This document shows, piece by piece, positions 31,064 through 46,598 of a stretch of 64,000 nucleotides of DNA. The translations under genes were made by a program, and so were the position numbers. Every line of letters begins with the position of its first letter. Position 1 is the stretch's first letter. The notes beneath the pieces are model-generated. The model was not told the origin of the DNA. It saw nothing but the letters and a program-made list of their open reading frames with translations, and ran no database searches. Origin of the DNA: Ancylobacter crimeensis (GTDB lineage Bacteria; Pseudomonadota; Alphaproteobacteria; Rhizobiales; Xanthobacteraceae); NCBI RefSeq assembly GCF_023016805.1, contig NZ_JALKCH010000003.1, forward strand, positions 62,001-126,000, given 5' to 3'.

Positions 31064-31834
31064 TCAATTCATCCACAATCCGCCGGTGACGTTGATCGCC
31101 TGCCCGGTCATGTAGGACGACTCGTCCGAGGCGAGGAACGCCACCACCCGCGCAATATCGTCCGGCACGCCGACCCGCCCGACCGGGATCAGCGCCTCGC
31201 GCTGCCTGGCCGTCGGCAGGCCCTGCTCCACCGAACGCGCGTCGGCCTCCTCGCGCATCCGGGTGCCGACGATGGTGCCGGGGCACACCGCGTTGACCGT
31301 GATGCCGAGCGCCGCCACCTCGGCCGCGAGCGACTGCGTGAGCGCGATCACCGCCGCCTTGGAGGCGGAATAGGCGGCATATTGCGGCTTGCCGATCTTC
31401 CCGAACCAGGACGCGGTGTTGATGATGCGGCCGCGGCGTCGCTCGATCATCGCCGGCAACACGGCGCGGGCAACGTTCACGGCGCCCTCGGTGTTGATGC
31501 GGAAGACGCGGCGCCATTCCGCCATGTCCATGTCGAGCACCGGTCCGACCCGCACGATGGCGGCGTTGTTGGACACGATGTCTACCGCACCGAGCGCGGA
31601 GGCGATCTGCGCCGCGGCCGCGCCCATGGCGTCCTCCTCGCCGATATCGGCACTGAGCGCGAGCGCCCGGCGGCCGAGCGCGCGGATCATCTCCGCCGTT
31701 TCCTGCGCCCCGGCTGCGTCGACATCGAGCACCGCGACGTCGCAGCCTTCTTCCGCGAGGCGGGTGGCGATCCGCCGGCCGATGCCGACCGCCCCGCCGG
31801 TGACCAGCGCGATCCGGCCGTCAAGTCCATACAT
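31064..31834 (-). CDS. SDR-family oxidoreductase at the end of the liv operon
   Basis: 256 residues from the ATG at 31834. Classical short-chain dehydrogenase: TGGAVGIGRRIA cofactor motif, acidic DVD after beta-2 (NAD preference), NNAA, the Ser of NTASWFG, and active-site YSASK; it ends in GGLWMN. It begins 11 bases after livF on the same strand and is therefore likely co-transcribed with the importer. Substrate unknown; the context suggests oxidation of an intermediate from the imported amino or imino acid. Confidence 0.85.
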   Translation of the reverse strand: MYGLDGRIALVTGGAVGIGRRIATRLAEEGCDVAVLDVDAAGAQETAEMIRALGRRALALSADIGEEDAMGAAAAQIASALGAVDIVSNNAAIVRVGPVLDMDMAEWRRVFRINTEGAVNVARAVLPAMIERRRGRIINTASWFGKIGKPQYAAYSASKAAVIALTQSLAAEVAALGITVNAVCPGTIVGTRMREEADARSVEQGLPTARQREALIPVGRVGVPDDIARVVAFLASDESSYMTGQAINVTGGLWMN

Positions 31835-31845
31835 CGCCCGCCCCC

Positions 31846-32595
31846 TCAGTGACCCGCTTCGAGTTCGGGCAGATAGATATGCTTGATGCGCGGATCGGCC
31901 TTCATCTTCTCCGCCGGTCCCGAGCACTGCAGCGAGCCGTGCTCCAGCGCATAAACGTAGTCCGCCACCTCGAAGGACAGGTCGATGTTCTGTTCGACGA
32001 GAATGATCGAAACCCCACTCTCCGCCAGCTTCAGCACGATTTCGAAGATCTGGTGGATGATGAGCGGCGCGAGGCCGAGGGAGGGCTCGTCCAGCAGCAG
32101 CAGCTCGGGATTGCCCATCAGCGCGCGGCCGATGGCGACCATCTGCTGCTGGCCGCCCGAGAGCCGCCCCGCCGACTGGTGCCGGCGCTCGCCGAGGATC
32201 GGGAACAGCGCGTAGACGTGGTCGCGCAGCTCGGCGAAGCTCTTGCCGCGGCCCGGCACATAGCCGGTGATCAGGTTCTCCTCGACGGAGAGCTGGAACA
32301 CCCGCCGCCCTTCCGGGCAGTGGCCGAGGCCGGAACGTGCCATCTGGAAGGGCTTGCGCCCGGTCACGTCCTCGTCGCGGAACCGGATGGTGCCCGCGCT
32401 CGGCCGGTTCAGCCCGCTGATGGTGCGCAGGAGCGTGGTCTTGCCGGCGCCGTTGGGGCCGATGATGCAGACGACCTCGCCCTTAAGGACCTCAAGGCTG
32501 ATGCCATGTAAGACCTTCACCCTCCCGTAGCCGGACTCGATTGCGTCGACCGCGAGCAGCGGCTTCGATGTCCCTGATCGCTCCTGGCTGGCCAA
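31846..32595 (-). CDS. livF: Branched-chain-type amino-acid ABC transporter ATPase LivF
   Basis: 249 residues. Walker A GPNGAGKTTLL, signature LSGGQQQMVAIGRAL, Walker B LLLLDEPSLGLAP, and the LivF-typical ending YLPELEAGH. The start at 32595 lies inside livG: the two frames overlap by 104 bases, far more than the usual few. The encoded first dozen residues (MASQERSGTSKP) are nonconserved, and a later start is possible. It is one of two ATPases of the same importer. Confidence 0.9.
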   Translation of the reverse strand: MASQERSGTSKPLLAVDAIESGYGRVKVLHGISLEVLKGEVVCIIGPNGAGKTTLLRTISGLNRPSAGTIRFRDEDVTGRKPFQMARSGLGHCPEGRRVFQLSVEENLITGYVPGRGKSFAELRDHVYALFPILGERRHQSAGRLSGGQQQMVAIGRALMGNPELLLLDEPSLGLAPLIIHQIFEIVLKLAESGVSIILVEQNIDLSFEVADYVYALEHGSLQCSGPAEKMKADPRIKHIYLPELEAGH

Positions 32596-44604: not shown

Positions 44605-45521
44605 CCGCGACCCGCTGGACCGGGGTATTCCCCGCCGTCACCACCAAGCTCAAGCAGGATGAGAGCCTCGATCTGGCTGCCACGCAGGCCAGCATCGACC
44701 GGCTGATCCAGAACGGCGTCTCCGGCGTGATCGTGCTGCCGATGCTGGGCGAGAACGCCTCGCTCACCGCCGCCGAGCGCGAGCAGGTGATCCTCGCCGC
44801 GAAGGAAGCCGTCGCCGGCCGGGTGCCGCTGCTCTCCGGCCTCGCCCATGTCGCGATGCAGGACGCCCTCGGCTCGGCCCGCCACTATGAGAAGCTCGGC
44901 GCGCAGGGTCTGATGGCCTTCCCGTCCATCGCCTACAAGACCGACCCGCGCGAGACCGCGCAGTGGTACCGCACCCTCGGCACCGAATGCGGTCTGCCGA
45001 TCATGATCTACAACAACCCGATTGCCTATGGCGTCGACGTGACCCCCGCCATCCTGAACGAGCTGGCGGATGTGAAGAACATCGTCTGCGTGAAGGAAGA
45101 GACCGGCGACATCCGCCGCGTGACCGACATTTACAATGCATGCGGCGACCGCTTCTCCGTGTTCTGCGGCGTCGACGACCTGCTGCTGGAGAGCGTCGCC
45201 CTCGGCGTCACCGGCTGGGTTTCGGGCATGACCAATGCCTTCGTCTCCGAATGCGTCGAGCTCTACACGCTCTGCCAGGCCGGCAAATTCGCCGAGGCCC
45301 GCGCGCTCTACCGCATCCTCACCCCGGCCTTCCATCTGGATACCGACGTGAAGCTCGTGCAGTACATCAAGCTCGCCGAGCAGGTCGTGTATGGCGCGCC
45401 GGAATGGACCCGCTCGCCGCGCCTGCCGCTGGTCGGCGAGGAGCGCGCCCGCGTGCTCGGCGTGCTGGAAGCGACGGTCGCCGCCCTCAAGGCCCGCCCC
45501 GCCGCCCGCTCCGCCGCCTGA
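44601..45521 (+). CDS. DapA/NAL-family lyase or deaminase
   Basis: 306 residues, a TIM-barrel class I aldolase-like enzyme. The Schiff-base lysine is Lys165 (CVKEET) and the catalytic tyrosine Tyr137 (MIYNNP). The usual GTT(G/S)E loop reads LGENASLT, so substrate recognition differs from true dihydrodipicolinate synthase. The family includes the pyrroline-hydroxycarboxylate deaminase of hydroxyproline catabolism, which would fit next to the epimerase and D-dehydrogenase genes. It shares an ATGA overlap with the mutase gene, implying coupled expression. Confidence 0.88.
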   Translation: MTATRWTGVFPAVTTKLKQDESLDLAATQASIDRLIQNGVSGVIVLPMLGENASLTAAEREQVILAAKEAVAGRVPLLSGLAHVAMQDALGSARHYEKLGAQGLMAFPSIAYKTDPRETAQWYRTLGTECGLPIMIYNNPIAYGVDVTPAILNELADVKNIVCVKEETGDIRRVTDIYNACGDRFSVFCGVDDLLLESVALGVTGWVSGMTNAFVSECVELYTLCQAGKFAEARALYRILTPAFHLDTDVKLVQYIKLAEQVVYGAPEWTRSPRLPLVGEERARVLGVLEATVAALKARPAARSAA

Positions 45522-45539
45522 GCCGACAGGAACAGCCCA

Positions 45540-46598
45540 ATGCGTTTCAGCCGCATGATCACCGTCGTCGGCGCCCATGCGGCCGGCGAACTGAACGAGG
45601 TCATCACCGGGGGCGTCCGCGACGTCCCCGGCAAGACCATGTTCGAGAAGATGCAATATGTGCAGGCGCACCAGGACGAGCTGCGCCAGTTCCTGCTGAA
45701 CGAGCCGCGTGGGCGCGTGAGCCAGTGCGTCAATCTCGTGCTGCCGCCGACCACGCCCGAAGCCGATGCCGGCTTCGTCATCATCGAGTCGGACTATTAC
45801 GTGCCGATGAGCGGCACCAACACCATCTGCACGGTCACCGCGCTGCTTGAAACCGGCATGATCCCCATGCAGGAGCCGGTCACCGAGCTGACGATGGAGG
45901 CCCCCGCCGGCCTCGTGAAGGTGCGCGCGGAATGCCGCGACGGCAAATGCGTGGCCGTCACCTTCGACAATGGCGCCGCCTTCCCCTTCGCGCTCGACCG
46001 CGAAATCGACGTGCCGGGGCTGGGCCGCATCACCGTCGATGTCGCCTATGGCGGCATGATCTACGTGATCGTCGACGCCGCGGCGCTCGGCTACCACCTC
46101 GACCTCAAGGAGGCCGCCGAACTGGTCGAGGTCGGCGAGCGGATCAAGCTGGCGGCGGCCGAGCAGATTCCCGCGGTGCATCCCGAGAATCCCGACATCC
46201 ACACCATCAACCAGACCCTGTTCGCCGGCCCGCTGGAGCGCAGCGAGCGCGGCCTCACCTCGAAGAACACGGTGATCGTCTCGCCCGGCCGGCACGACCG
46301 CTCGCCTTGCGGCACCGGCACCTGCGCCCGTATGGCCGCGCTCCACGCCAAGGGGCTGCTGGGGCTGGACGAGCCCTTCATCCACCGTTCGCTGATCGGC
46401 ACCGAATTCATCGGCCGGCTGCGCGGCACGGCGCAGGTGGACGGCCCGAACGGGGTCGCCGGCGTGCTGCCGACCATCACCGGCCCGGCGTGGATCACCG
46501 CCTTCCACCAATATGTGCTGGACCCCACCGACCCCTTCCCGCGCGGCTATCGCCTCGGCGACACCTGGCCGGGCTACACGGGCGAGCAGCCGATCTGA
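45540..46598 (+). CDS. Proline racemase superfamily, Ser/Cys type
   Basis: 352 residues. The first catalytic position is Ser91 (VPMSGTNTICTV) and the second Cys257 (DRSPCGTGTCARM). This differs from the Cys/Cys paralogue at 41049 and from the Cys/Thr trans-3-hydroxyproline dehydratases. Ser/Cys members of the family have been reported to act on hydroxyprolines as epimerases or dehydratases, so a dehydration or inversion step is likely, but the substrate is open. It closes the plus arm; about 790 bases of gene-free DNA follow. Confidence 0.87.
   Translation: MRFSRMITVVGAHAAGELNEVITGGVRDVPGKTMFEKMQYVQAHQDELRQFLLNEPRGRVSQCVNLVLPPTTPEADAGFVIIESDYYVPMSGTNTICTVTALLETGMIPMQEPVTELTMEAPAGLVKVRAECRDGKCVAVTFDNGAAFPFALDREIDVPGLGRITVDVAYGGMIYVIVDAAALGYHLDLKEAAELVEVGERIKLAAAEQIPAVHPENPDIHTINQTLFAGPLERSERGLTSKNTVIVSPGRHDRSPCGTGTCARMAALHAKGLLGLDEPFIHRSLIGTEFIGRLRGTAQVDGPNGVAGVLPTITGPAWITAFHQYVLDPTDPFPRGYRLGDTWPGYTGEQPI

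Follow-up and report, generated by a model that had tools for sequence, protein, structure and literature searches.

A divergent gene cluster of Ancylobacter crimeensis that may serve the uptake and catabolism of a proline-like imino acid by way of a predicted B12 mutase

Introduction

A stretch of 64,000 nucleotides from Ancylobacter crimeensis (contig NZ_JALKCH010000003.1; G000:C20:62001-126000, hereafter the window, in a genome of 4.3 Mb) carries a divergent gene cluster in which enzymes of the hydroxyproline type stand beside a protein resembling cobalamin-dependent mutases (MUT). Only a small number of B12-dependent mutase families are known. The initial annotation had proposed a 16-gene divergent regulon for a new amino or imino acid pathway. 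We propose, with a probability of roughly 0.45, that the cluster is a GntR-controlled divergon, centred on a new adenosylcobalamin mutase family, whose genes serve uptake and catabolism of a proline-like imino acid distinct from ordinary trans-4-hydroxyproline.

Results

Organization of the cluster

Translations and hidden Markov model scans of the window confirmed all 16 genes first listed, each with Pfam support, and the unit is enlarged to 17 genes by an alpha/beta-hydrolase gene conserved alongside the others. Several true starts fall inside the longest open reading frame (ORF). The features are listed below, with type A denoting clusters that have the arrangement of the window.

31064-31834, minus strand: SDRa, short-chain dehydrogenase (SDR); PF13561 4.9e-60; kept in 10/10 same-genus type-A clusters compared
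31846-32595, minus strand: LivF-like ABC ATPase; PF00005
32492-33331, minus strand: LivG-like ABC ATPase; PF00005 and PF12399
33331-34347, minus strand: LivM-like permease; PF02653
34307-35248 (likely start; frame 34307-35404), minus strand: LivH-like permease; PF02653 9.3e-39
35401-36507, minus strand: LivK-like binding protein; PF13458; 3ip5_A E 8.9e-49
36595-37269, minus strand: GntR/FCD regulator; PF00392 and PF07729
37288-37302, no strand: operator 1, 15-bp palindrome TGAATACGATATTCA
37396-37410, no strand: operator 2, 15-bp palindrome TGAATATTGTATTCA
37489-38013, plus strand: cupin; PF07883 3.7e-17
38109-38879, plus strand: SDRb; PF13561; PRK06138.1 333 bits, cut-off 312
38914-39792, plus strand: AspDH-like (former DUF108) dehydrogenase; PF01958 and PF03447; TM1643 alignment
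39809-41035, plus strand: DadA-like FAD dehydrogenase; PF01266 1.5e-55
41049-42047, plus strand: 4HypE-like epimerase, Cys/Cys; NCBIfam PRK13971.1, 580 bits against a cut-off of 376
42057-42371, plus strand: NIPSNAP protein; PF07978 1.3e-27
42787-44604, plus strand: MUT, predicted single-chain B12 mutase with a glutamate-mutase-like barrel and a C-terminal B12 domain
44601-45521, plus strand: DapA-like protein of the dihydrodipicolinate synthase (DHDPS) type; PF00701 7.7e-51
45540-46598, plus strand: second proline-racemase-family protein, Ser/Cys, SGTN motif; PF05544; T3LHypDht 414 bits, below the cut-off of 550
47386-48228, plus strand: alpha/beta-hydrolase; PF00561 1e-26; kept in 10/10 same-genus type-A clusters compared

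The LivH frame 34307-35404 was preferred because the alternative, 34314-35306, had no Pfam match. The gaps upstream of the DadA-like, epimerase and NIPSNAP genes are 16, 13 and 9 bp, and the genes for MUT and the DapA-like protein share 4 bp. The longer gap of 415 bp between the NIPSNAP and MUT genes holds an inverted pair of REP-like palindromes, CCCTCTCCC...GGGAGAGGG, at 42530-42568 and 42647-42685.

The predicted B12 mutase

The architecture predicted for MUT, a barrel followed by a Rossmann-type B12 domain, is that of glutamate-mutase-type adenosylcobalamin mutases, a fold prediction in keeping with the mutase-like character first assigned to it. In the DxHxxG ... S ... GG signature D480, H482, G556 and G557 were invariant in 21 sequences, with G485 and S527 nearly so (L015 carries A at G485). 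K63 and K486 were the only nearly invariant lysines in alignment A1, in which a pyridoxal phosphate-binding lysine, as in ornithine/lysine aminomutase, was sought at the level of sequence. Pfam and NCBIfam recognise MUT by its B12 domain only, and this domain alone also matches methionine synthase. For the region before it, where a corrinoid methyltransferase would have a helical cap domain, Pfam gives PF02310 only, and MetH alignments start somewhat upstream of the domain. Searches of the PDB with phmmer and hmmsearch did not link the barrel to known mutases. Adrenodoxin matches (E 0.006 and worse) were judged to be chance.

Two related proteins were observed in other genomes. A second mutase subfamily, 33% identical (L041:7698-10856, minus strand), directly adjoins a reactivase gene of the MutL/GlmL type; an SDR and a solute-binding protein are encoded there as well. 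On a Rhizobium lentis plasmid (L142:7734-8699), one protein combines DUF1349 with the C-terminal portion of a mutase-like protein, B12 domain included; its gene adjoins IS66 genes and is perhaps a relic.

Twin operators in the divergent promoter region

The two arms of the cluster were initially described as joined by twin operators, and such sites are present in the divergent promoter region as two 15-bp palindromes with arms 95% complementary. They are the sole sites of this kind: with up to 1 mismatch allowed, the 4.3-Mb genome contains no further one, and 100 shuffles of the window gave zero matches. The exact pair, at a spacing of 108-109 bp, occurs in the window and in ten same-genus type-A clusters (L047, L049-L057), the spacing being 107-109 bp once L058-L066 and L078 are added. 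In L073-L075 each site of the pair has two mismatches, which is weaker evidence because two-mismatch sites occur elsewhere in L073 too; a scan of L076 and L079 found no pair. Scanning 36400-38100 for promoters and terminators detected two promoter-like sites, both weak; terminators were not found. Rfam at gathering scores, used to seek a cobalamin riboswitch, yielded only one tRNA from the window. At the level of sequence, the conserved operators support a single divergent regulon, in which one GntR repressor appears to control the genes for both import and degradation.

Distribution and neighbourhood of the mutase

Neighbourhoods were compared in the best 80 of 230 candidate loci, a choice biased to close relatives, and in 17 additional loci from the sets of relatives and of the class. 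Neighbour gene counts were taken from tblastn, with identity thresholds of our choice and with L047-L057 excluded as duplicates of genomes among L058-L078, rather than from ORF clustering; the latter was GC3-filtered against antisense ORFs, and shadow ORFs persist in some loci, chiefly those of lower GC. Several loci are cut by contig ends, so that counts of absence are upper bounds, and the gene calls at L123 and L136 are unreliable.

Of 41 relatives, a number that counts the own genome, 14 had a mutase homologue; 12 of these 14 belong to the genus, which was represented by 25 genomes. In evenly drawn sets, homologues occurred in 12/289 genomes of the class and in 3/299 of the phylum, and the latter three again belong to that class. 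Type A accounts for 15 of the 80 loci, and the neighbourhood recurs in other genomes, as the initial annotation required of its proposal. All 15 hold the epimerase, the second racemase-family gene, DadA, cupin, AspDH-like, hydrolase, SDRb, NIPSNAP and LivK, and ProC-like genes were found close to none of them (0/15, tblastn). Type B, mostly of Rhizobium and Mesorhizobium, has consecutive genes for the cupin, AspDH-like protein, hydrolase and mutase, accompanied by a KstD-like flavoprotein, an acetoin-dehydrogenase-like complex, carnitine-dehydrogenase-like and ProC-like proteins and a Liv system, while type C (Shinella) is a reduced arrangement. Cupin and AspDH-like genes co-occur in 45 of 47 loci having either (tblastn). 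A ProC-like gene was present in 52 of the 65 non-type-A loci and 9 of the 17 additional ones (by comparison, the whole 4.3 Mb of the own genome gave 3 such matches), and at L130, which has no ProC, a gene of the ornithine cyclodeaminase (OCD) family adjoins the mutase. The type-A epimerase, at an identity of at least 75%, was found in 0/65 and 0/17 of these loci.

A quick tree was made of 102 mutases, labelled A (16), B (26), Bb (7), C (5), E1-bearing (5), ProC-like only (26) and other (17). Among named mutases the one from Ancylobacter lacus is nearest, at 85% identity. Type A falls together with six Bosea-type loci and one Acetobacter locus in a supported group of 23. Type A occurs in Xanthobacteraceae, Brucellaceae, Beijerinckiaceae and Lichenihabitantaceae, type B takes its place in another member of the genus (G303, L046), and four relatives (L138-L141) are plasmid-borne; gene transfer is therefore likely, and the cluster is patchily inherited and probably horizontally acquired, as judged from this distribution.

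The initial annotation had also seen one pathway in which the mutase is added to the hydroxyproline route. That both sets share one cluster stands; the addition itself is in doubt, since the mutase/AspDH-like/cupin/hydrolase block exists in relatives without hydroxyproline enzymes and may be a separable sub-pathway. Gene transfer could have brought together two independent modules that share a regulator, one for a hydroxyproline analogue and one based on B12 that acts on a different substrate. The supported tree group is consistent with this, as its Bosea-type loci have ProC-like, cupin and AspDH-like genes without hydroxyproline genes and, of the window's genes, only the mutase and a DapA-like gene were found in Acetobacter L077. 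However, in all 11 same-genus type-A clusters, including the window, the NIPSNAP and mutase genes lie between those for the epimerase and the second racemase-family protein, so that the two sets are interleaved; the mutase and DapA-like genes overlap in the window; and hydroxyproline-type genes (racemase family, aldehyde dehydrogenase (ALDH), FAD enzyme, DapA) also accompany the mutase in the distant branches of L140 (a Phyllobacterium plasmid) and L112. We consider two separate modules unlikely.

Several side observations were made. A family of approximately 290 residues (f18, e.g. L097:16257-17126) is frequent in type B and C clusters (30/80 loci); its sequence matched nothing in Pfam, NCBIfam or the PDB. 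Genes for a PhyH dioxygenase, a dimethylglycine-dehydrogenase-like protein or a Rieske protein lie near the mutase at loci of other families, namely L104, L121, L128, L132, L037; L034, L035, L041, L042, L110, L116; L040 and L043, assigned by Pfam on L104, L132, L042 and L040 and by similarity at the others, and could hint at N-methylated substrates. The ORFs flanking the cluster of the window (29882-30940 and 49616-50341) presumably encode, judging from translation, a tRNA-dihydrouridine synthase and an SRAP-type protein, and look unrelated to it.

The hydroxyproline-type enzymes are second copies

The epimerase exceeds the cut-off of the 4-hydroxyproline epimerase equivalog. The DadA-like and DapA-like proteins are assigned at superfamily level only, as an FAD D-imino-acid dehydrogenase and a DHDPS-type deaminase. 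A separate GntR-DapA-DadA-epimerase locus is present elsewhere in the genome (G000:C23), the identities between the two loci being 64% for the epimerase, 41% for DadA and 45% for DapA. The hydroxyproline-type enzymes of the cluster are thus second copies. An epimerase of the C23 type (61-64% identical to that of the cluster) was found in 24 of the 25 genus genomes. The cluster type (at least 86%) was restricted to 11 of the 25, comprising all 11 with a type-A cluster and 0/14 without. The separate locus and the restriction of this epimerase to the cluster favour the initial suggestion that the substrate is probably other than ordinary trans-4-hydroxyproline.

The statement that the cluster lacks a 2-oxoglutarate semialdehyde (KGSA) dehydrogenase held, no aldehyde dehydrogenase being found there by Pfam scans. 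Each of the 14 ALDH-like matches in the genome at E<=1e-40 lies outside the window, and none of the best six, which were scanned for a KGSA dehydrogenase, reaches the GudD-type cut-off. Translations bore out the catalytic pairs first reported, Cys/Cys in the first racemase-family protein and Ser/Cys in the second; the latter has Ser at the first and Cys at the second catalytic position, and the Thr of trans-3-hydroxyproline dehydratase is not present. An eLife study (PMC4113996) reports Ser/Cys for a 4HypE and Ser/Thr for a t3HypD, with two accession names used inconsistently between its text and a figure legend.

These enzymes could also be read as an ordinary duplicate of a trans-4-hydroxyproline operon with hitchhiking genes. 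Besides the epimerase score, agreement with the published route of epimerase, D-amino acid oxidase and DHDPS, as given in the same study, is in favour of this. It is nevertheless distinctly unlikely, given that such a locus already exists elsewhere with its epimerase in nearly every genome of the genus, that the cluster copies have diverged so far, and that no KGSA dehydrogenase accompanies them.

The binding protein and the AspDH-like dehydrogenase

The closest solved relative of LivK is 3ip5_A, with which it has the FNSGV segment in common and which we take to be Atu2422, a receptor for gamma-aminobutyric acid (GABA) and proline. A review (PMC5924552) states that Atu2422 takes GABA and contributes to the uptake of proline, alanine and valine. 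A proline-like ligand is plausible from this relationship, as is the uptake of a proline-type amino acid foreseen in the initial annotation.

The AspDH-like protein shares both Pfam domains of L-aspartate dehydrogenase (TM1643) and, in the alignment, keeps its FEG, PRN, (D/E)HNxH and NPKTS segments. It differs in its genomic setting, which looks catabolic, and in missing all NCBIfam cut-offs (at best 201 against 528 bits for PRK13301.1, and 176.7 against 177 for the subfamily PRK13303.1-3).

Discussion

In the proposed pathway, GntR bound to both operators would repress both arms until the substrate or an intermediate releases it. LivKHMGF would import the proline-like compound, the racemase-family proteins would invert C2, and oxidation of the D-imino acid by DadA would give a pyrroline-2-carboxylate, which the DapA-like protein would open and deaminate or dehydrate. 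The mutase would work like glutamate mutase, shifting a carbon group within an amino (or oxo) dicarboxylate to yield an aspartate-type product, which the AspDH-like dehydrogenase would oxidise; this order is hypothesized mainly because a glutamate-mutase fold is paired with an aspartate-type dehydrogenase. The cupin, SDRs and hydrolase would complete breakdown of the branched skeleton. The lack of ProC-like genes in the vicinity of every type-A locus suggests that ProC works at a cyclic-imine step much like that of the type-A hydroxyproline enzymes, and a ProC-like imine reductase would replace these enzymes there in relatives. Somewhat more tentatively, MUT may be the founder of a new single-chain adenosylcobalamin family that rearranges the carbon skeleton of a proline-derived amino acid and has as its usual partner either a ProC/OCD-type reductase or an epimerase-dehydrogenase pair.

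Several results weigh against this pathway. The mutase and hydroxyproline blocks occur apart, and their substrates may differ. The DapA-like gene is missing from 3 of the 15 type-A loci (present in 12/15), no ProC-like gene lies within the stretch covered in 13/65 non-type-A and 8/17 additional loci, and L140 holds both ProC-like and hydroxyproline genes, so that the two are not strictly exclusive. The plus-strand run is broken by 415 bp between the NIPSNAP and MUT genes and by 787 bp between the second racemase-family gene and the hydrolase gene. The AspDH-like protein falls below every NCBIfam aspartate-dehydrogenase cut-off. The barrel was without sequence similarity to glutamate mutase, MUT having no match to PF06368 (Met_asp_mut_E) up to E 10 and hhalign against one GlmE sequence giving a probability of 0.1 (of 100). 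Finally, glutamate-mutase-type B12 enzymes become inactivated in use, yet a MutL/GlmL reactivase had 0 matches in the own genome.

Two other activities of the B12 protein were considered. As an eliminase, a B12-dependent equivalent of HypD (a glycyl-radical enzyme), it would dehydrate a hydroxyproline to a pyrroline carboxylate, which a ProC-like enzyme would reduce to proline. The frequent ProC-like neighbour, the OCD-family gene at L130 and the hydroxyproline genes of type A accord with this reaction, but the DxHxxG (base-off) domain and the glutamate-mutase fold are traits of mutases and not of known B12 eliminases, and type A lacks the nearby ProC-like gene; an eliminase is improbable. There is likewise little probability that the protein is a corrinoid methyltransferase demethylating N-methylated imino acids (betaines), to which the Rieske oxygenase, dimethylglycine-dehydrogenase-like and PhyH neighbours in some relatives and the match of the B12 domain to methionine synthase would point.

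The predicted mutase differs from glutamate mutase (epsilon and sigma; GlmES/MutES) in being a single chain of approximately 10% identity without a PF06368 match, in a genome without a MutL match. The 2-methyleneglutarate mutase of Eubacterium barkeri resembles MUT in size, in consisting of one chain and in having its B12 domain at the C-terminus; no nicotinate-fermentation genes were recognised in the cluster. Three of the four enzyme types of the trans-4-hydroxyproline cluster (4HypE, cis-4-hydroxyproline (c4Hyp) oxidase, Pyr4H2C deaminase and KGSA dehydrogenase) are shared, whereas here the KGSA dehydrogenase is absent, the mutase, AspDH-like, cupin, NIPSNAP and hydrolase genes are extra, and the genome holds its GntR-DapA-DadA-4HypE locus elsewhere. 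No description of the present cluster was found among the open-licence papers listed, judged by titles and abstract openings. The parts are of known kinds, and the mutase family and the pathway appear to be undescribed in the literature searched.

The mutase family is present in many Alphaproteobacteria, and the conserved operons make the substrate directly testable. If MUT does represent a new single-chain family, soil bacteria would have a route for proline-type compounds that depends on B12. If the reaction rearranges the skeleton of a proline-type amino acid, both the type of reaction and this path of degradation would be new for bacteria of soil and roots.

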